The notes under the pieces were generated by a model. That model did no database searches. It was not told the origin of the DNA and saw nothing but the letters and a program-made list of their open reading frames with translations. A stretch of DNA of 64,000 nt from Neobacillus sp. SuZ13 (GTDB lineage: Bacteria > Bacillota > Bacilli > Bacillales > Cytobacillaceae): assembly GCF_030123365.1 (NCBI RefSeq), contig NZ_CP126107.1, forward strand, positions 3,991,501 through 4,055,500, read 5' to 3'. Of the stretch, positions 37,766-46,352 are shown in pieces; positions within the stretch are counted from its first letter, which is position 1, and every line of letters starts with the position of its first letter. The translations under genes were made by a program, and so were the position numbers.

Positions 37766-39991
37766 ATGGAACAATGGACTGGATTTACAAAAGGTGCTTG
37801 GTCAAAAGAAGTTAACGTTCGCGATTTTATCCTTAATAACTTTACTCCTTTCGAAGGAGATGATTCATTTTTAGAAGGACCTACAGATGCAACCACTAAA
37901 CTTTGGGCACAGGTAATGGAATTAACCAAACAAGAGCGTGAAAAGGGCGGCGTATTAGATATGGACACAGAAACCGTATCTACGATTACTTCCCATGGAC
38001 CTGGTTACCTTAACGAAGACCTTGAAAAAATTGTTGGGGTACAAACCGATAAACCGTTTAATCGTTCAATGCAGCCATTTGGTGGGATCCGTATGGCGAA
38101 AGCAGCTTGTGAAGCTTATGGTTACCAATTAAACCCTGAAATTGAAAAAATCTTTACTGAGTTCCGTAAAACTCACAATCAAGGTGTTTTCGATGCCTAT
38201 ACAGATGAAATGATGCTCGCTCGTAAAGCTGCGATTATTACCGGTCTTCCTGATGCTTATGGCCGCGGCCGTATTATTGGGGATTATCGCCGCGTTGCTC
38301 TCTACGGTGTTGATTTCTTAATCCAAGAAAAGCAAAAAGACCAAAAGAACACAAGCAAAGTAATGACTGAAGAAAATATGCGCCTTCGTGAAGAACTTGC
38401 CGAACAAATTCGTGCTTTAAAAGAATTAAAAGAAATGGCAAACAGCTATGGATTTGATATTAGTCAACCAGCTAAAAATACTGCTGAAGCATTCCAATTC
38501 GTGTACTTTGGATACTTAGCAGCGATTAAGGAACAAAACGGTGCGGCAATGAGCCTTGGCCGTGTGTCAACATTCTTAGATATTTACGTAGAAAGAGATT
38601 TACAAAACGGAACAATAACGGAAAAAGAAGTACAAGAAATAGTTGACCATTTTATTATGAAGCTTCGTCTTGTAAAATTTGCCCGCACACCAGATTATAA
38701 TGAACTATTCAGTGGAGACCCTACTTGGGTAACAGAATCAATTGGCGGTATGGCAAATGATGGTCGGTCCCTTGTAACGAAAAACTCATTCCGCTTCTTG
38801 CATACATTGGATAACTTAGGTGCTGCACCAGAACCAAACTTAACAGTTTTATGGTCACCACAGTTACCTGAAAACTTTAAAAAATATTGTGCGAAAATGT
38901 CCATCAAAACTAGCTCGATTCAATATGAAAACGACGATATTATGCGACCAGAATATGGCGATGACTATGGAATTGCTTGCTGTGTATCAGCAATGGAGAT
39001 TGGTAAGCAAATGCAGTTCTTTGGTGCCCGCGCCAACCTTGCAAAAGCACTTCTATACGCTATTAACGGCGGTGTAGATGAAAAATTAAAAATTCAAGTA
39101 GGTCCACAATATCAGCCAATTACATCTGAAGTATTAAACTATGAAGAAGTAATGCAAAAATTCGATCTTGTGATGGAATGGCTTGCTGGTCTTTACATCA
39201 ATACCTTAAATGTCATTCACTATATGCATGATAAATACAGTTATGAAAGAATTGAAATGGCGTTGCATGATACGAAGATTCTTCGGACAATGGCCACTGG
39301 TATTGCCGGCCTATCCGTTGTTGCTGATTCACTGAGCGCTATTAAATACGGAGAAGTTAAAGTAATCCGTGATGAAAACGGTCTTGCGGTTGATTTTGAA
39401 ACTACTGGGGACTTCCCTAAATACGGAAACAACGATGACCGAGTCGATGCAATTGCGGTAGAAGTGCTTAAAACCTTTATGAAAAAGCTTCGTAAACACC
39501 AAACTTACCGTGATTCTGTTCACACACTATCTATCTTAACGATTACATCTAATGTAGTCTATGGAAAGAAAACCGGTAATACACCTGATGGACGTCGTAT
39601 GGGAGAACCATTTGCACCAGGCGCTAACCCAATGCACGGCCGTGACACAAAAGGAACACTAGCTTCACTATCTTCGGTTGCGAAGCTTCCATACAACTAT
39701 GCGATGGATGGAATTTCAAATACCTTCTCAATCGTACCTAAAGCATTAGGTAAAGAAGAAGTAAGCCAAACCCGTAACCTGGTATCAATCCTAGATGGAT
39801 ATGCTATTAAATCAGGTCATCACTTAAATGTTAACGTCTTTAATCGTGAAACATTAATTGATGCAATGGAACACCCAGAGCTTTACCCACAATTAACAAT
39901 CCGTGTTTCTGGATATGCAGTTAACTTCATTAAATTAACAAAAGAACAACAGTTAGACGTTATTAATCGAACATTCCATGAATCACTATAA
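37766..39991 (+). CDS. pflB: Pyruvate formate-lyase (formate acetyltransferase)
   Basis: This glycyl-radical enzyme cleaves pyruvate with CoA to acetyl-CoA and formate under anaerobic conditions. The 741 residues include the catalytic Cys-Cys pair in G-I-A-C-C-V-S-A-M (about residue 411) and the C-terminal glycyl-radical loop R-V-S-G-Y-A-V-N-F (Gly near 715). Codon use is regular and the ATG follows ATGAGGTGA. The activase gene follows 58 bp downstream, so both form an operon. Formate made here is the likely substrate of FdhF. Confidence 0.97.
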
Positions 39992-40049
39992 TTAAACCAA
40001 CAGAGGCCCTTTTATTGGGGCTCCTAGTAAACTTAGGGGGATCATCATC

Positions 40050-40802
40050 ATGAACGGAAATATTCATTCAATCGAAACATTAGGTACAGTCGACGGACCA
40101 GGTATCCGCTATGTTATTTTTACACAAGGCTGCCTATTGCGGTGCCAGTTTTGCCATAATGCTGATACATGGGAAATTGGCAGCGGCAAAGAAATGACCG
40201 TTTCCGAAATCATGGATGATCTTATGTCCTATCTGCCTTTCATTCAGTCTTCTGGCGGTGGAATTACAGTGAGCGGTGGTGAACCCCTGCTGCAAATCCC
40301 CTTCCTAACAGAATTGTTTAAGGAATGTAAAAAGAAAGGGATTCATACGACCATTGATTCTTCAGGTGGCTGCTTCTCTCATTCAAAGCTTTTTGTAGAC
40401 CAGTTAGAGGAGCTGCTCCAGTATACTGACCTAATCCTGTTGGATTTGAAACATATTAACCGGAAAAAACATATTCAATTAACAGGAATGGCCAATGACC
40501 ATATTCTTGAGTTTGCGACATTCTTATCCGACCATCACGTTCCTATCTGGGTTCGCCACGTGCTCGTCCCTACGGTAACAGATAATCCCGAAGATTTAAC
40601 CAAACTTGGTGAATTCATCGGAACACTTAAAAACGTCCAAAAGATTGAAATTCTTCCCTACCACAAACTCGGTGTTTATAAATGGGAAGTACTTGGAAAT
40701 GAATATCAACTCCATTCTGTTGAGCCACCCACAGAAGAAAACGTTGAGTTTGCCTATAAGAAAATAACTGCTCACTGGAATGTACCCATCCAAAAACACT
40801 GA
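40050..40802 (+). CDS. pflA: Pyruvate formate-lyase-activating enzyme
   Basis: This radical-SAM enzyme installs the glycyl radical on PflB. The 250-residue protein has the C-x3-C-x2-C cluster motif in C-L-L-R-C-Q-F-C-H-N (about residues 28-36), G-G-G-I-T-V-S-G-G-E-P-L-L and the family start N-I-H-S-I-E-T-L-G-T-V-D-G-P-G-I-R. The ATG follows TTAGGGGGATC. It overlaps its own terminator at the stop codon. Confidence 0.96.
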   Translation: MNGNIHSIETLGTVDGPGIRYVIFTQGCLLRCQFCHNADTWEIGSGKEMTVSEIMDDLMSYLPFIQSSGGGITVSGGEPLLQIPFLTELFKECKKKGIHTTIDSSGGCFSHSKLFVDQLEELLQYTDLILLDLKHINRKKHIQLTGMANDHILEFATFLSDHHVPIWVRHVLVPTVTDNPEDLTKLGEFIGTLKNVQKIEILPYHKLGVYKWEVLGNEYQLHSVEPPTEENVEFAYKKITAHWNVPIQKH

Positions 40803-40821
40803 TTCGATTGAATCAGTGTTT
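40794..40821 (+). terminator. Terminator of the pfl operon
   Basis: The arms AAACACTGATTC/GAATCAGTGTTT close over GATT; the left arm contains the pflA stop codon and a T tract follows. Confidence 0.9.
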
Positions 40822-40914
40822 TTAGATATTGGGCATAATTTGGCAACTTTGATACTTACCCTATTGGGCAATAAGTAAATATCTTCATAATCTGGCATTT
40901 TGGCAAGTATTAAA

Positions 40915-40943
40915 TTGATTCTTTACCCTATCTCCTATATACT
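40915..40943 (+). promoter_or_regulatory. Sigma-A promoter of the mifM-like/yidC2 operon
   Basis: TTGATT at 40915-40920 and TATACT at 40938-40943 are separated by 17 bases. They lie just upstream of the TTG start at 40977. Confidence 0.65.
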
Positions 40944-40976
40944 CATATCATTGACATTTAAGTGAGGTGATAATAT

Positions 40977-41267
40977 TTGTTTCAATTGCTTATCGACAGT
41001 TCAGATATCAATGCACTTAACGCTCTTTATGTAAGTATTTTTTTAGGAATTGCTTTAAAATTATTATGGGCATGGAGTGTGGAATATTCTTTTGTTGGTT
41101 CCTTATCTGATCCGGCAAGGACAAATATTATTCACCCATTGGTACTTTACCTTAAGAAAAGTTGTTTAAATGGCAGCTTTATTCTGAAAAGAATTGTTAT
41201 ATATTTTCGTAGAAAAGAATATTCACAGGATGATTCTGAAGAACCTGTTTCCTCCCTTTTTTCTTAA
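40977..41267 (+). CDS. MifM-like translation-arrest leader peptide (candidate)
   Basis: The 96-residue product starts at TTG behind GAGGTGA. One membrane segment (about 13-34) is followed by a C-terminal tail with R72-I-V-I-Y-F-R-R-K80, then the acidic cluster D85-D-S-E-E89. B. subtilis MifM is 95 residues, has one N-terminal membrane segment, sits directly upstream of yidC2 and arrests its own translation through an R-I-x-x-W-I-R-K region and a following acidic cluster. Primary sequence is otherwise divergent. The last codons can pair with the yidC2 ribosome site. It would sense membrane-insertion capacity: insertion releases arrest, failure keeps yidC2 open. Alternatively it is an unrelated small membrane protein. 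Confidence 0.7.
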   Translation: MFQLLIDSSDINALNALYVSIFLGIALKLLWAWSVEYSFVGSLSDPARTNIIHPLVLYLKKSCLNGSFILKRIVIYFRRKEYSQDDSEEPVSSLFS

Positions 41268-41297
41268 TAAATATTTATAAACCATTCTAGGAGGAAA
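41248..41297 (+). promoter_or_regulatory. Hairpin hiding the yidC2 ribosome binding site
   Basis: UUUCCUCC (41248-41255, codons 91-93 of the leader ORF) is perfectly complementary to GGAGGAAA (41290-41297), the yidC2 Shine-Dalgarno. The 34-base loop holds the leader stop codon. A ribosome stalled on codons 85-89 would cover the left arm and free the site, the mechanism known for mifM-yidC2. Confidence 0.75.
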
Positions 41298-41298
41298 T

Positions 41299-42093
41299 AT
41301 GAAAAACAAACGATCTTCATTAATTATTGTTACAATGTTGGCTTTAACGACTTTATTATTATCTGCATGTTCATCACAAGCACAAAATGGAAACAACAAT
41401 AGTGGATTTTTCCATACTTATTTTGTCGAACCTTTTTCAACTTTTATCCATTATTTAGCTGAACTTTTTAATGGAAACTATGGTTTGTCCATTATTCTTG
41501 TAACGTTGATTATCAGGCTTGCTCTAATGCCGCTTATGTTAAGGCAGTATAAAAATCAAATGGCCATGAAGGAAAAAATGGATGTGTTAAAGCCTGAAAT
41601 GGATGTCATTCAGACTAAAATGAAAACCGAAAAGGATCCAAAGAAAAAGCAGGAACTTCAAGCAGAGATGATGGGTCTTTATAAAAAGCATGGGGTTAAT
41701 CCATTAAATATGGGCTGTTTACCATTGCTTATCCAAATGCCTATTCTAACTGGTTTCTATTATGCGATTCGCGGTTCCGAAGAGATTAAAACTCATGAGT
41801 TTTTATGGTTCAGTCTAGGAAATCCTGACATCATTATTACGATTATTGCTGGGGTTATTTACTACTTCCAGTTTAAAGTTTCTCAGTCGAATATGCCTAG
41901 CGCACAGGCAGACCAAATGAAATATATGGGTTTACTCTCCCCATTAATGATTGTTATGTTTTCATTTAACGCACCAGCAGCCCTTCCTCTTTATTGGGTA
42001 GTCGGTGGTACGTTCTTGATTATTCAAACAATGATTAGTAAAAGTCTTTATCAAACTAATAAGACACCGAAAGTTCAAGTCAAACAAAAATAA
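41299..42093 (+). CDS. yidC2: Membrane protein insertase YidC2 (OxaA/YqjG-type lipoprotein)
   Basis: This lipoprotein inserts and folds membrane proteins. The 264 residues have a lipobox L-L-S-A-C (Cys24) and five membrane segments, with the conserved Arg in I-I-R-L-A-L-M-P-L (about residue 74), the charged loop K-M-K-T-E-K-D-P-K-K-K-Q-E-L and Q-M-P-I-L-T-G-F-Y. In B. subtilis SpoIIIJ is the main insertase and YqjG/YidC2 the inducible one; the arrest-peptide-like ORF upstream supports YidC2. The ATG has GGAGGAAAT, probably masked by a hairpin. Confidence 0.9.
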   Translation: MKNKRSSLIIVTMLALTTLLLSACSSQAQNGNNNSGFFHTYFVEPFSTFIHYLAELFNGNYGLSIILVTLIIRLALMPLMLRQYKNQMAMKEKMDVLKPEMDVIQTKMKTEKDPKKKQELQAEMMGLYKKHGVNPLNMGCLPLLIQMPILTGFYYAIRGSEEIKTHEFLWFSLGNPDIIITIIAGVIYYFQFKVSQSNMPSAQADQMKYMGLLSPLMIVMFSFNAPAALPLYWVVGGTFLIIQTMISKSLYQTNKTPKVQVKQK

Positions 42094-42104
42094 TCAGACT
42101 GAAA

Positions 42105-42128
42105 AAGAAGCGTCCTTGGATGCTTCTT
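42105..42128 (+). terminator. Terminator of yidC2
   Basis: The arms AAAGAAGC/GCTTCTTT run into further T residues. Confidence 0.85.
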
Positions 42129-42199
42129 TTTTTGGATAGTTTTTTACAATTATGGCAACCTAATTTTGTAGAATTCAGATAAAGGAGTGATATGACAAC

Positions 42200-42775
42200 A
42201 TGAAATTCAACTTATTCATCATTGCTTCCCTTATTCCAAGTCTTTATTTAACTGGTTGCGCTAATAATGATATGAATAATGAAGTTGCTACACGTCAACG
42301 AAATGCAACTGACATAACCCGTGTAAATTATAATCCCCATCAAGTCGGACCTGCGATTTCAAGCGCTGATACCAGTGATCCCGAATTAGACCGCACGAGA
42401 AAGCATAATAATAGGAATAACGTAGGAAATAACAATCCAACCAACACAAGACTAGCGGATAAGGCAGTTGATAAAGTAATCAACTTGTCCGAAGTCGATG
42501 ATGCAGTTATCATTGTAAATGATAATAATGCTTATGTTGCTGCTAAATTGAACCGTTCATCACGGAATGAATTGACCTCAGATATTAAAGATAAGATTGC
42601 TCATGCAGTCAAATCCGTTGATGAAAATATTGACAACGTTTATATTTCAGTTAACCCTGATTTTTATGACCGCATGAATACATATTCCAGAGATATTCGA
42701 AATGGACGACCTGTTTCAGGTTTCATGGATGAGTTTTCTGATATTATCCGTCGAGTCTTCCCAAATGCAAAATAG
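42200..42775 (+). CDS. YhcN/YlaJ family spore lipoprotein
   Basis: The 191-residue protein has a signal peptide with lipobox Y-L-T-G-C (Cys19), an Asn-rich linker with N-N-R-N-N-V-G-N-N-N, and the YhcN/YlaJ domain (about 88-185) seen in L-A-D-K-A-V-D-K-V, V-D-D-A-V-I-I-V-N-D-N-N-A-Y-V-A and I-D-N-V-Y-I-S-V-N-P. Family members are made in the forespore and sit in the inner spore membrane, affecting germination. The ATG follows AAAGGAGTG. Confidence 0.85.
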   Translation: MKFNLFIIASLIPSLYLTGCANNDMNNEVATRQRNATDITRVNYNPHQVGPAISSADTSDPELDRTRKHNNRNNVGNNNPTNTRLADKAVDKVINLSEVDDAVIIVNDNNAYVAAKLNRSSRNELTSDIKDKIAHAVKSVDENIDNVYISVNPDFYDRMNTYSRDIRNGRPVSGFMDEFSDIIRRVFPNAK

Positions 42776-42789
42776 TCAAAATAAATAAA

Positions 42790-42817
42790 AAATGCCTGGC
42801 GCATCAGCCTGGCATTT
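42790..42817. terminator. Bidirectional terminator
   Basis: AATGCC/GGCATT arms with inner GGC/GCC pairs, A tract before and T tract after, lie between the convergent spore lipoprotein and acetyltransferase genes. Confidence 0.75.
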
Positions 42818-42820
42818 TTA

Positions 42821-43411
42821 TTATTTATACAACTTGTCTTTTAATTGGGTGCTTACGCCTTCCCATTCATCATGAAGGATACTAAAAAATACCGTATCCC
42901 TTACGTATCCATCAGAAATTATCCGATCTTTCCGTAGTACTCCTTCTTTCACGGCACCGATTCTAGCAATCGCGTTTTGGGATCTTATATTTCGAGCGTC
43001 TGTTTTTAATTGGACACGTGTAAGATTCCAAACATCAAATGCATGGCTTAATAGAAGAAATTTACACTCGGTATTTACTTTGGTCCGCCATACAGTCGGA
43101 TGATACCACGTCGAGCCAATTTCTGCACTATTATGGTTTGGGAGTATATCTAAGAATCGTGTGCTTCCAATGATATGATTATTGTTGTCCACAACCGTAA
43201 AGGTATAATCTGTTCCATGTTCACGTGCTTTAATGGCAGCGTTTATCATTTGTTCCATATCATCTTTTGAGCGAATTTTTGTCGCCATATACGTCCATAT
43301 TTCTTCTGGTTCCGCTGCTTCCCACAAACCGTCTAAGTGGTCCATACTGACAGGAATTAACTTTACCGTTTCCCCTTGTAACGAAAATAGATCGTTCCAT
43401 AATTTAACCAT
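42821..43411 (-). CDS. GNAT family N-acetyltransferase (RimJ/RimL-like)
   Basis: The 196-residue protein has the Acetyltransf_3 layout: V-K-L-I-P-V-S-M-D-H-L near the start, I-I-G-S-T-R-F-L-D-I, E-I-G-S-T-W-Y-H-P and the helix L-L-S-H-A-F-D-V-W-N-L-T-R-V-Q-L-K-T-D-A-R-N with N-A-I-A-R-I-G-A. It uses acetyl-CoA to modify an amine of unknown identity, perhaps a protein N-terminus. The ATG follows AAAAGGGAG. Repeat family 2 begins 23 bp upstream of its start. Confidence 0.85.
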   Translation of the reverse strand: MVKLWNDLFSLQGETVKLIPVSMDHLDGLWEAAEPEEIWTYMATKIRSKDDMEQMINAAIKAREHGTDYTFTVVDNNNHIIGSTRFLDILPNHNSAEIGSTWYHPTVWRTKVNTECKFLLLSHAFDVWNLTRVQLKTDARNIRSQNAIARIGAVKEGVLRKDRIISDGYVRDTVFFSILHDEWEGVSTQLKDKLYK

Positions 43412-43433
43412 AAATCATTCTCCCTTTTTCATA

Positions 43434-43670
43434 AGAAAAGCGCAAGCGCCCTGCTCAGCGGCGTATGGCCTCCTCGAAAGAGCTAACGCTCTTTCTTCGT
43501 GCGATGCTTATGCTGCCGAAGCCTTCCTTGTGGAGCGCTCCAACTGAGATAAAGGAAACACGAAGAGCCGGAGGCGCATTCGTGCTTGACTTATCGCAGG
43601 GCGGAGAGCGAAGGACACTAGCCGCTAGGGCCGCTTGCGCTAGACAGTAATATAAGTTCAAAAACTTTTA
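43434..43670. repeat. Dispersed repeat family 2, copy A (~237 bp)
   Basis: This copy is almost identical to 58930..59166. It contains GCGCAAGCG near the left end and CGCTTGCGC near the right end, and an internal perfect hairpin GAAAGAGC/GCTCTTTC. It is more GC-rich than its surroundings. Several chance ORFs cross it; none has a ribosome site, and the two copies do not keep one frame. Confidence 0.85.
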
Positions 43671-43719
43671 CTTTCTTACCATAAGAAAAGACTGCGGGCT
43701 ATGCTCCACAGTCCTCCTA

Positions 43720-43923
43720 TTATGCATCCTGAAAATATTCTTTGTAAAAGCCGCCTACTTTTCCTGTATTATCAACAATGTAATAAAATTCTTCTGTCTC
43801 ATTTTTTACATCATAGACTTTCCCAGCCGTTAAGGCATTATTGACAAGATATTTTTTGGCATCCGTATGAACGCATTTTATTTTTTTTATTGTTTCCCGA
43901 TCACGCCATGATAGATGAATCAT
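43720..43923 (-). CDS. DUF6501-like small protein, 67 residues
   Basis: The product M-I-H-L-S-W-R-D-R-E-T-I-K-K-I-K-C-V-H-T-D-A has a small beta-rich core with G-K-V-Y-D-V-K-N-E-T-E-E-F-Y-Y-I-V-D and ends G-G-F-Y-K-E-Y-F. This matches a Bacillaceae family that I recall as DUF6501. The ATG at 43923 follows GAAAGGAAGGG; upstream codons of the longer reading are not supported. Function is unknown. Confidence 0.7.
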   Translation of the reverse strand: MIHLSWRDRETIKKIKCVHTDAKKYLVNNALTAGKVYDVKNETEEFYYIVDNTGKVGGFYKEYFQDA

Positions 43924-44122
43924 TGGTGCACCCTTCCTTTCGTTCTTTGTCCCACTCCTAGTATAATCAAAATGGCTGGTGGTGCGCAACAAAATCAATA
44001 CATTAAGAAATTGTGAACTATTTTAAAATTTTATTAATTTTGGGTTCTCAAATGACCAAAAAAACATTACAATTATAAAAACTGAATATTCAATCCATTT
44101 TCTTGAGGAGGCATTCATAAGT

Positions 44123-44257
44123 ATGAAAATTATGAGTAATGAGCAATTAGTTGTTTCGTATCGGGATGCATTAAAGTCTGACAAGGAAAAAGAATGGATT
44201 AAGATATTAAAAGATGAAATCAAACGCCGTGGCCTAAGACCATTTAAAAATCGTTAA
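44123..44257 (+). CDS. sda: Sda-like inhibitor of sporulation kinases
   Basis: The 44-residue product M-K-I-M-S-N-E-Q-L-V-V-S-Y-R-D-A continues E-W-I-K-I-L-K-D-E-I-K-R-R-G-L. It shares the helical hairpin pattern of B. subtilis Sda (L-S-D-E-L-L-I-E-S-Y, then F-I-E-L-I-E-N-E-I-K-R-R-S-L), which blocks KinA/KinB autophosphorylation when replication is disturbed. The ATG at 44123 follows GAGGAGG by 11 bases; a second ATG at 44132 is possible. No clear DnaA box was found upstream. The PAS kinase at 22506 is a conceivable target. Confidence 0.78.
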   Translation: MKIMSNEQLVVSYRDALKSDKEKEWIKILKDEIKRRGLRPFKNR

Positions 44258-44264
44258 CTCGAAA

Positions 44265-44290
44265 AAACCGCTGAAAGGATTCAGCGGTTT
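44265..44290. terminator. Bidirectional terminator between sda and mnmH
   Basis: The arms AAACCGCTGA/TCAGCGGTTT are followed by a T tract and preceded by an A tract. Confidence 0.85.
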
Positions 44291-44291
44291 T

Positions 44292-45386
44292 TCAATTTAA
44301 TCTCAATTTAATTTCATTACTTGTTAAATCATTAGGATAAAGGGATAATTCAGTAAGTTTTCCTGCAATCTTGTCAGCCGCATCCACCGGATTATCAGCA
44401 AAGATCTCAAAGAATTCCCCTTCATACTCTTGTTTCGCATGGTCATAACGCGGATCATAATAGTATTCAAGTAAAAGGTGAATCATATCCGGGTAATTTC
44501 GCTCCGATAACGCTTGGATAAGTGAATTTCTGATATCAATAGCTTTAATACGCCTTAACACCTTTTCAATCCCATCTGATATCTTATCAAAATACCATGG
44601 CTCATTCTGGTAAGGAAGTACATATTCCGCCACAAGATGTGTTACTCTTTGTTCAATCGGGGTATTTAGATTGATATTTATCCCTCTCATCTTTTTATCC
44701 ATTAATTCCTCGGTTTGGACGGCTTTTCCGATTCTTTTGCTTTCTGCTTCCACGAGAAAGTAATCAGCACCCTTGATTTCGGTAAGTCCTTTAAATAGTA
44801 AGGAGTCAAATGTTTTTTGATTATGACCATCCCCAAGTCCGATTGTTCCGAATATAGAACCGCGATGCCCTGCCATCTCTTCAAGGTCTAAAATTGGATA
44901 TCCTCTTTTTTTCAAGACCTTTAAGACCTCTGTTTTCCCAACCCCTGTTAGTCCATGAAGGACAATAGCTTTGCCGGGAAGCATTTTTGGTAACTGTTCA
45001 AGAATATAGTGGCGGTACTCTTTATATCCACCTACTAGCCTACTAGCATAAATACCTGCAAACTCGAGAAACGTGACCACAGCTTTACTTCTCATCCCAC
45101 CTCGCCAGCAATGGATAATCAGCTCCGAATCGTTAGAAATGGCCTTCTTTATTGTTTGTAATAAGACAGGAATCTTAGGGGAAACGATTTCCATTGCTTT
45201 CCACTTAGCGTGCGATGGTCCTTCTTGTTTATAAATTGTTCCAATTATCTGACGTTCTTCATCTGTAAATAAGGGAACATTGATCGCTCCAGGAATTGCA
45301 CCATCATTAAACTCAATTGGTGAGCGTATATCAATGATTATAGGATTCTTAATCGTAAAAAGTTCTTCGACAGTCATTTCTTTCAT
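44292..45386 (-). CDS. mnmH: tRNA 2-selenouridine synthase
   Basis: MnmH (SelU/YbbB) replaces the sulfur of 2-thiouridine at wobble position 34 of tRNAs with selenium from selenophosphate, through a geranyl intermediate. The 364 residues equal the E. coli length. An N-terminal rhodanese domain has the catalytic Cys93 in H-C-W-R-G-G-M-R-S and a C-terminal P-loop domain has G-L-T-G-V-G-K-T (145-152). The ATG at 45386 follows GAGGAGC; upstream codons to 45461 are rejected. It implies SelD elsewhere in the genome and agrees with the UGA-containing fdhF. Confidence 0.92.
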   Translation of the reverse strand: MKEMTVEELFTIKNPIIIDIRSPIEFNDGAIPGAINVPLFTDEERQIIGTIYKQEGPSHAKWKAMEIVSPKIPVLLQTIKKAISNDSELIIHCWRGGMRSKAVVTFLEFAGIYASRLVGGYKEYRHYILEQLPKMLPGKAIVLHGLTGVGKTEVLKVLKKRGYPILDLEEMAGHRGSIFGTIGLGDGHNQKTFDSLLFKGLTEIKGADYFLVEAESKRIGKAVQTEELMDKKMRGININLNTPIEQRVTHLVAEYVLPYQNEPWYFDKISDGIEKVLRRIKAIDIRNSLIQALSERNYPDMIHLLLEYYYDPRYDHAKQEYEGEFFEIFADNPVDAADKIAGKLTELSLYPNDLTSNEIKLRLN

Positions 45387-45566
45387 ATCATCTACGCTCC
45401 TCTTAAAAATTCTTATTGAATAAATCAAATATCTATTAGAAAACAAACAAAACTTCCACAATGGGAAGTTTCGAAAAAAGTCAACTAGTGTAAATTAGAA
45501 TTTCCTACGTATCTATTATACAGGAAACATCCCTTGCATTCAAGGAGAGACAGTTACCCTGTGTGC

Positions 45567-46352
45567 TTATACCATTTTTGATATTGGTTTAAAAACAGAC
45601 ATTAACTTTTCCATCTCAACCAGTTTTCCATTATGAAATTGATCGACAATTTTGCTGCCAACTATAACTCCATCACAGTACTTTGTTAAGTCTGCAATCT
45701 GTTCTTGGCTTGAAATGCCGAAGCCCGCCAAGACAGGAATTGGACTTTGAGCTTTTACATTCTGTAAGAATTGATTCAATTCCGAATCATATTCATTTCT
45801 CACACCTGTAATCCCCTTAATTGTTACCGTGTATAAAAATCCCCTGCCCTTATTTGCAATCGTTTTGATTCGCTCAATAGGTGTTGTGAGCGTGACAAGA
45901 CGAATTAATTCTATTTCAGCTTCATCTAGCTGCGGTGTAATAATCCCTTCTTCTTCTATCGGTAAATCGGGAATAATACACCCGTCTACACCTGCATTCC
46001 GTATATCTTGGACAAATTCATTGATCCCATAGCGATATATTGGATTTAAATAAGTCATAAGCAGGATTGGAACATTAATTTCCTTTCGTGCCTTTCCTAA
46101 TTCTGTAATAATGCTCTTAAGCGTTGTGCCATTTCCAAGTGCTCTAATTCCCGCTTGCTGGATGGTTGGTCCATCAGCCACTGGATCCGAAAATGGAACC
46201 CCCACCTCAATGGCCGTTGCACCGAATTTCTCTAATAATTGAAGACGATCAACCAAACATTCCAGTCCGCCATCTCCTGCCATGATGTATGGAACAAACG
46301 CTTTTGTATTATTCTCTTTCAATGCTGCAAAAGTTTTTTCAAAACGGTTCAT
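45567..46352 (-). CDS. trpA: Tryptophan synthase alpha subunit
   Basis: TrpA cleaves indole-3-glycerol phosphate to indole and glyceraldehyde 3-phosphate in complex with TrpB. The 261-residue TIM barrel has the catalytic Glu in A-T-A-I-E-V-G-V-P-F-S-D-P (about residue 46) and catalytic Asp in G-C-I-I-P-D-L-P-I (about 130 after the G-V-D start), plus the phosphate loop G-F-G-I-S. It starts three bases after trpB and is the last gene of the operon; no aroH, hisC or tyrA follows, unlike the B. subtilis supraoperon. Confidence 0.97.
   Translation of the reverse strand: MNRFEKTFAALKENNTKAFVPYIMAGDGGLECLVDRLQLLEKFGATAIEVGVPFSDPVADGPTIQQAGIRALGNGTTLKSIITELGKARKEINVPILLMTYLNPIYRYGINEFVQDIRNAGVDGCIIPDLPIEEEGIITPQLDEAEIELIRLVTLTTPIERIKTIANKGRGFLYTVTIKGITGVRNEYDSELNQFLQNVKAQSPIPVLAGFGISSQEQIADLTKYCDGVIVGSKIVDQFHNGKLVEMEKLMSVFKPISKMV

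Follow-up and report, generated by a model that had tools for sequence, protein, structure and literature searches.

The closest described system to the locus considered here is MifM (YqzJ) of B. subtilis, an arrest peptide encoded upstream of yidC2 (yqjG). According to the accessible text of PMC4423224, its landmark residues are H68, R69, I70, W73, I74, F78, R79, M80, N81, D86-D89, A90, G91 and S92; R79 is located at A751 and uL4, and a Shine-Dalgarno (SD)-like helix of 8 base pairs lies behind the MifM-stalled ribosome. The same text assigns to residue 90 of uL22 a governing role in the strength of MifM stalling in B. subtilis, and names Q among the residues unlikely to support it. The motif RIxxWIxxxxxMNxxxxDEED has been published for MifM (accessible text of PMC7897499), and a MifM class (572 sequences, 592 Firmicutes genomes) has been described by Fujiwara et al. 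2024 (main text of PMC10987492). In the papers cited here, knowledge of which residues MifM requires for arrest rests on B. subtilis.

We analysed a window of 64,000 nucleotides from the soil bacterium Neobacillus sp. SuZ13, whose genome is represented by one contig of 6.09 Mb (listed contamination 12%); the second YidC of this genome is encoded where the chromosome record ends. Upstream of yidC2, the window carries an ORF (Table 1) that can be assigned from the sequence, on the basis of its location, profile matches, anatomy and RNA, as the MifM orthologue of Neobacillus. Its product most likely jams its own ribosome on failure of membrane insertion, which would switch on a backup insertase. 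The computational analysis showed the orthology, together with a membrane segment, selection at the synonymous sites of a conserved hairpin, a narrow spacing between the arrest site and the SD, and an association with a second YidC.

Table 1. Features of the mifM-type locus (positions are those of the window)
Feature	Position	Strand	Basis
mifM-type arrest peptide ORF, 96 codons, TTG start	40977..41267	+	sequence, genus comparison, profiles
Shine-Dalgarno GAGGTGAT serving the mifM-type ORF	40964..40971	+	sequence
membrane segment, approximately residues 12-35 of the mifM-type peptide	41010..41081	+	hydropathy maximum at residues 17-35
putative arrest core, codons 68-89 (FILKRIVIYFRRKEYSQDDSEE)	41178..41243	+	alignment to MifM
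internal SD-like AGGATGAT, 6 nt 5' of codon 89	41227..41234	+	codon bias, 16S-tail duplex; role inferred
hairpin left arm	41246..41255	+	41248-41255 complements 41290-41297 exactly
hairpin right arm: yidC2 Shine-Dalgarno GGAGGAAA and A of ATG	41290..41299	+	sequence, predicted fold
yidC2, putative regulated target	41299..42093	+	60KD_IMP, E 4.7e-45
promoter-like site TTGATT-17-TATACT, 5' of the mifM-type ORF	40915..40943	+	9/12 match
terminator-like hairpin ending the upstream pflA-type gene	40795..40825	+	11 pairs and T run, -13.9 kcal/mol, z -5.66
terminator-like hairpin 3' of yidC2	42101..42133	+	-16.9 kcal/mol, T run
gene for a YhcN/YlaJ-type sporulation lipoprotein, 3' of yidC2	42200-42775		

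The earlier note had placed before yidC2 a 96-codon ORF with one membrane segment and the stretch RIVIYFRRK followed by DDSEE, and all of this was recovered at the codons it gave. The translation contains a basic and aromatic R72-I-V-I-Y-F-R-R-K80, then an acidic D85-D-S-E-E89, and simple hydropathy yields a single strong hydrophobic segment with its peak at residues 17-35. The TTG start is shared by 58 of the 59 genus sequences (GTG in the remaining one), and translation of the sensor may be limited by this weak start. The ORF has a good SD and is separated from yidC2 by 31 bases. Since the pflA-type gene ends in a terminator-like hairpin, the ORF probably begins its own transcript, and the presence of such hairpins both before it and after yidC2 suggests that it is probably cotranscribed with yidC2; neither hairpin was listed by a consensus terminator scan. 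Promoter-like matches around the ORF were no commoner than in shuffles (consensus scan), and the TATACTC block is identical throughout an alignment of the window with 11 relatives from the genus and with G033, the one genus genome that lacks the ORF. Searches of positions 40600-42300 against Rfam and of 38000-46000 for tRNAs gave no match, no model of Pfam or NCBIfam matched the peptide, and its only match in a PDB sequence search was meaningless (E 1.6).

BLAST detected no similarity between the window peptide and B. subtilis-type MifM (E 0.63), and with the genus profile alone the hhalign probability against the latter was only 3%. Over the arrest core, hhalign aligned the wide profile A2 with the MifM sequence L214 in 25 gapless columns at E 0.0012 and a probability of only 19%, and a HMMER search limited to two sequences gave E 1.1e-4. 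L214 (95 aa, counted from the ATG that places R at 69) was taken as the B. subtilis-type MifM because it carries the landmark residues given in the accessible text of PMC4423224. The kinship is carried by intermediates, since L187, a sequence from the B. subtilis-type genus matched by profile A2 at E 1.4e-5, is itself 60% identical to L214 over 87 columns. The family profile detects putative MifM relatives that are missed by pairwise comparison, and the MifM-type reading proposed in the earlier note, now backed by the profile and the intermediates, gains support beyond analogy. The description of a strongly diverged peptide can be refined, as the peptide is widely shared and not a lone diverged copy.

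The alignment places R72, I73, R78, R79 and K80 of the window peptide on W73, I74, R79, M80 and N81 of MifM, and D85, D86, S87 and E88 on D86, E87, E88 and D89. Of the six non-acidic positions of the published motif only I70 and I74 are matched, with the acids D-D-S-E in register. Among 64 relatives, the W73 column contains W (41), R (18), H (2), F (2) or K (1) and the M80 column mainly R (37) or K (17), while R occupies the R79 column in 62 and K the N81 column in 58. These counts indicate that W73, M80 and N81, which are important in B. subtilis, are not kept in that form by the family, and that R79 is nearly invariant. Another register, with R72-I73 on R69-I70, was dropped, because W stands at that column in 41 of the 64 relatives and the acids align without gaps only when R72 is placed on W73. 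The strict B. subtilis motif pattern, with one mismatch allowed, was found in 1 of 398 class genomes, the window genome not being among the matches; a version with a relaxed acid position and two mismatches occurred in 16 of 44 genomes from the B. subtilis-type genus. The 54 residues between the end of the hydrophobic segment (residue 35) and residue 89 equal the median given for this spacing in the MifM class in the main text of PMC10987492, and D85-D-S-E-E89 lies within the range (residues 70-100) in which the same text expects the acidic stretch of that class.

The mifM-type ORF is present in 59 of 60 genomes of the genus, its own included, and in 58 of these 59 sequences the downstream ATG opens a frame encoding YidC2. 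The closest relatives of the window genome are Bacillus sp. AFS073361 (98%) and several strains at 93-94%, including N. drentensis NBRC 102427. Of 193 family genomes, 132 were matched by a profile of 34 genus members, and the matches were spread over 20 of 25 genera; one of them (G189, inside a 580-aa frame) is spurious, leaving 131. The earlier note had staked its reading on the conservation of the ORF in relatives, which is evident at both levels. Among genomes drawn from the order, the same profile matched 21 of 299, and a profile of 64 sequences matched 23 of 398 drawn from the class, with a YidC frame behind the match in 16 of these 23 loci and 7 not located before a YidC. For the loci L110-L179, a YidC frame lies at most 120 nt away in 69 of 70, the exception (L179) being a chance match in G033 (E 0.47). 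In some distant loci of the order and class (L185, L190, L191, L198, L199 and L200), the upstream ORF seems to extend beyond the arrest core and to enter the yidC2 frame.

YidC is encoded in all 193 family genomes, 14 of which have a single one and 179 two or more. Matches to the profile were obtained in 131 of the 179 genomes with at least two YidC versus none of the 14 with one (the spurious match in G189 aside), some of the 14 assemblies being incomplete. There was no match in 48 of the 179, and inspection of the region 5' of yidC2 in six profile-missed genomes revealed a diverged ORF in four (G093, G094, G105 and G107), an ORF split by a frameshift in G064, and no ORF in G033. The frameshift in G064 (L247) is situated near a run of eight A, with the arrest core intact in the other frame; the split may be a sequencing error or real.

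Across the family the C-terminal core is kept while the N terminus and the middle of the peptide diverge; within the genus, the N terminus and the membrane segment are conserved too. The genus pattern would suit a small membrane protein working in trans, for example a partner of YidC2, to which the SD complement would be secondary. The family pattern, in which the core persists, argues against this explanation, as do two observations described below (the synonymous sites and the state of G033), and we consider it very improbable.

Codons 91-93 of the ORF carry UUUCCUCC, the exact complement of the yidC2 SD GGAGGAAA at 41290-41297. This match had been pointed out in the earlier note and proved correct, TTTCCTCC at 41248-41255 pairing exactly with the SD. 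The predicted stem joins 41246-41255 with 41290-41299, and the minimum free energy of the 91-nt stretch is -14.5 kcal/mol. Taken alone, the hairpin of the window is only moderately unusual (z -1.63, with folds as stable in 12 of 200 shuffles), which leaves some room for the view that the ORF and the complement arose by chance; its conservation in 59 of 60 genus genomes, together with the codon evidence, makes this scarcely credible. An SD complement was found in the 59 genus sequences (own included) as an exact 8-mer in 23, a 9-mer with one bulge in 27 and a shorter core in 9, the search pattern for the last class having been picked after the sequences were viewed, and its expected conservation in relatives was thereby borne out. 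The codon for Ser92 is TCC in 54 of 55 cases, compared with 9.2% of the serines in the yidC2 parts analysed, and that for Phe93 is TTC in 26 of 26, compared with 32%; these counts are not phylogenetically independent, and their binomial values ignore shared descent.

Because there is scarcely any variation in the SD arm, the hairpin was assessed by synonymous shuffles in place of covariation. In 56 sequences (the 59 of the genus minus two duplicates and one containing N), the mean unpaired probability of the SD was 0.013 versus 0.26 in the shuffles, and the arm duplex was at or beyond the 5% tail in 51. Masking in the wider family is weaker than in the genus: the SD is less than 0.3 unpaired in 48 of 51 sequences (one of 52 gave no SD), and 31 of the 51 are within the lowest tenth of shuffles, for which genus codon usage was applied. 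According to these predictions, the masking of the RNA is maintained beyond what the peptide requires, and such tracking of the pairing by synonymous sites is difficult to reconcile with a protein that works in trans.

With codon 89 in the P site, the usual footprint of a ribosome reaches approximately 41256 and covers the left arm. For the window, the energy predicted to be needed to open the SD then falls from 5.8-9.8 to 3.2-3.8 kcal/mol, depending on the context length, and is reduced to 2.2-2.6 kcal/mol with codons 90-92 in the P site. In the genus comparison, when the arm is covered by a ribosome positioned at codon 89, the predicted cost drops from 8.8 to 3.9 kcal/mol, being lower in 58 of 58 sequences and by at least 3 kcal/mol in 41. 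Contrary to a simple picture, the SD is predicted to be still partly paired in this state, weakly so in most sequences (mean unpaired probability 0.23 in 56 sequences, 0.05 in the window, above 0.7 in 1 of the 56). The geometry put forward in the earlier note fits, as far as the modelling indicates.

In the genus, codon 89 lies 44-55 nt (sd 2.3) and the stop codon 2-30 nt (sd 7.0) from the SD. A narrow spacing of the arrest codon combined with a variable stop is what one would predict if expression is governed by the arrest codon rather than by the stop. Plain translational coupling, in which the hairpin would be opened by ribosomes terminating on the upstream ORF, which would then serve yidC2 with neither stalling nor sensing, would be expected to fix the stop, and would leave the conservation of specifically the C-terminal core across the family without a reason. 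It is compatible with the short intergenic gap, with the overlap of the upstream stop and the SD in 5 of 59 sequences (stop to SD 2 nt), and with the ORFs of L190, L191 and L198-L200 that appear to enter yidC2. On balance we regard coupling as improbable and favour regulation by arrest.

Another element that may contribute to arrest is AGGATGAT, whose distance from codon 89 approximates the spacing found at initiation sites. In the genus, Gln84 is encoded by CAG in 35 of 44 cases, compared with 27% in yidC2, and Lys84 by AAG in 8 of 10, compared with 38%. AGGATGAT can also form a duplex with the 16S tail. The element may help to hold the ribosome.

It is very probable, in our opinion, that in this Neobacillus MifM orthologue stalling released by YidC frees the hidden SD of yidC2; the stalling, its codons, the release by YidC and the induction are what we infer from the evidence presented above. 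The N-terminal membrane segment would make the nascent chain a substrate of YidC. If YidC capacity is sufficient, insertion would pull the chain, translation would be completed, and the hairpin 41246-41255/41290-41299 would shut the ribosome site of yidC2. If capacity is low, I73 and R78-K80 in the tunnel, together with D85-E89 near the peptidyl transferase centre, would stall the ribosome at approximately codons 88-92. The stalled ribosome would cover the left arm, GGAGGAAA would be freed and YidC2 would be made.

The single genus genome without the ORF provides a natural deletion. In G033 (C44, L246) pflA is followed by yidC2 and the peptide is gone: the TATACTC block, GAGGTGA, and a TTG with F-Q codons run in frame into the body of YidC2, whose signal peptide is missing, and none of the frames of at least 60 aa located 5' of yidC2 corresponds to a mifM-type peptide. 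From this arrangement, synthesis of YidC2 is expected to be free of the switch, in line with a peptide acting in cis; a trans-acting partner is hard to square with a genome that retains YidC2 and not the peptide. The fusion lies on a contig of 4516 bases and may be an assembly error.

The window genome and the B. subtilis-type genome have the same uL22 hairpin, including M90. Among 37 genomes, which were not randomly chosen, residue 90 is associated with the intact ORF (Fisher p 0.016): Q is present in three (G033, G064 and G075) and M in four (G068, G069, G070 and G092) of the seven genomes without it, and M in 29 and Q in one (G074) of the 30 with it. This link was rejected as a finding and kept as a lead, because G074 breaks a strict rule and G064, with its ORF split at the A run, is perhaps a sequencing error; G075, for which one YidC was found in a fragmented assembly, shares its genus with G074. 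In G066, uL22 was not found in the 15 stretches searched.

A further proposal, which we consider evenly balanced between right and wrong, is that Neobacillus and its near relatives have remodelled the contacts that MifM makes in mid-tunnel. W73, a tryptophan of importance in B. subtilis, would have been replaced by R72, and M80-N81 at the constriction by R79-K80, with the acids close to the peptidyl transferase centre and the uL22 hairpin kept and AGGATGAT placed to hold the ribosome at codon 89. Basic side chains would then bring about the same arrest in place of aromatic ones; G033 would then be a case in which the switch was dismantled by fusion. The natural variants (59 in one genus, with W-to-R and MN-to-RK changes, the same uL22 hairpin, and one loss) make the residue question directly testable.

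Neobacillus is not named in the main text of PMC10987492, and among open-licence papers we found none that combines MifM with Neobacillus. In a broader sense, the locus resembles SecM, VemP, ApcA and the RAPP-type systems, where a stalled ribosome exposes a hidden downstream site, but it differs from ApcA and the RAPP type in that RAPP, RAPG and RAGP are all absent from the peptide. It shares with CliM (uC_KYxIW) of Clostridia, encoded upstream of yidC, the putative role of an arrest peptide monitoring YidC (accessible texts of PMC13183943 and PMC10987492), and differs from it in lacking K-Y-x-I-W in the window translation. The MifM class, as presented in the main text of PMC10987492, has in common with the locus an ORF upstream of yidC, an N-terminal localisation signal and acids between residues 70 and 100. 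The resemblance to B. subtilis MifM extends to the genetic location, the length (96 versus 95 aa), the N-terminal membrane segment, the register of the acids, the retention of R79 as R78, the identical uL22 hairpin, and the position of the left arm of the SD-masking hairpin, shortly after the arrest codons. The two differ in that R69, W73, M80 and N81 are replaced by F68, R72, R79 and K80, and DEED by DDSE(E), as well as in the TTG start, the distance between codon 89 and the SD (49 versus 40 nt) and the shorter stem in Neobacillus. To conclude, this type of switch is already known; the Neobacillus MifM adds changes at key residues and a naturally occurring deletion, both of use in testing its mechanism.
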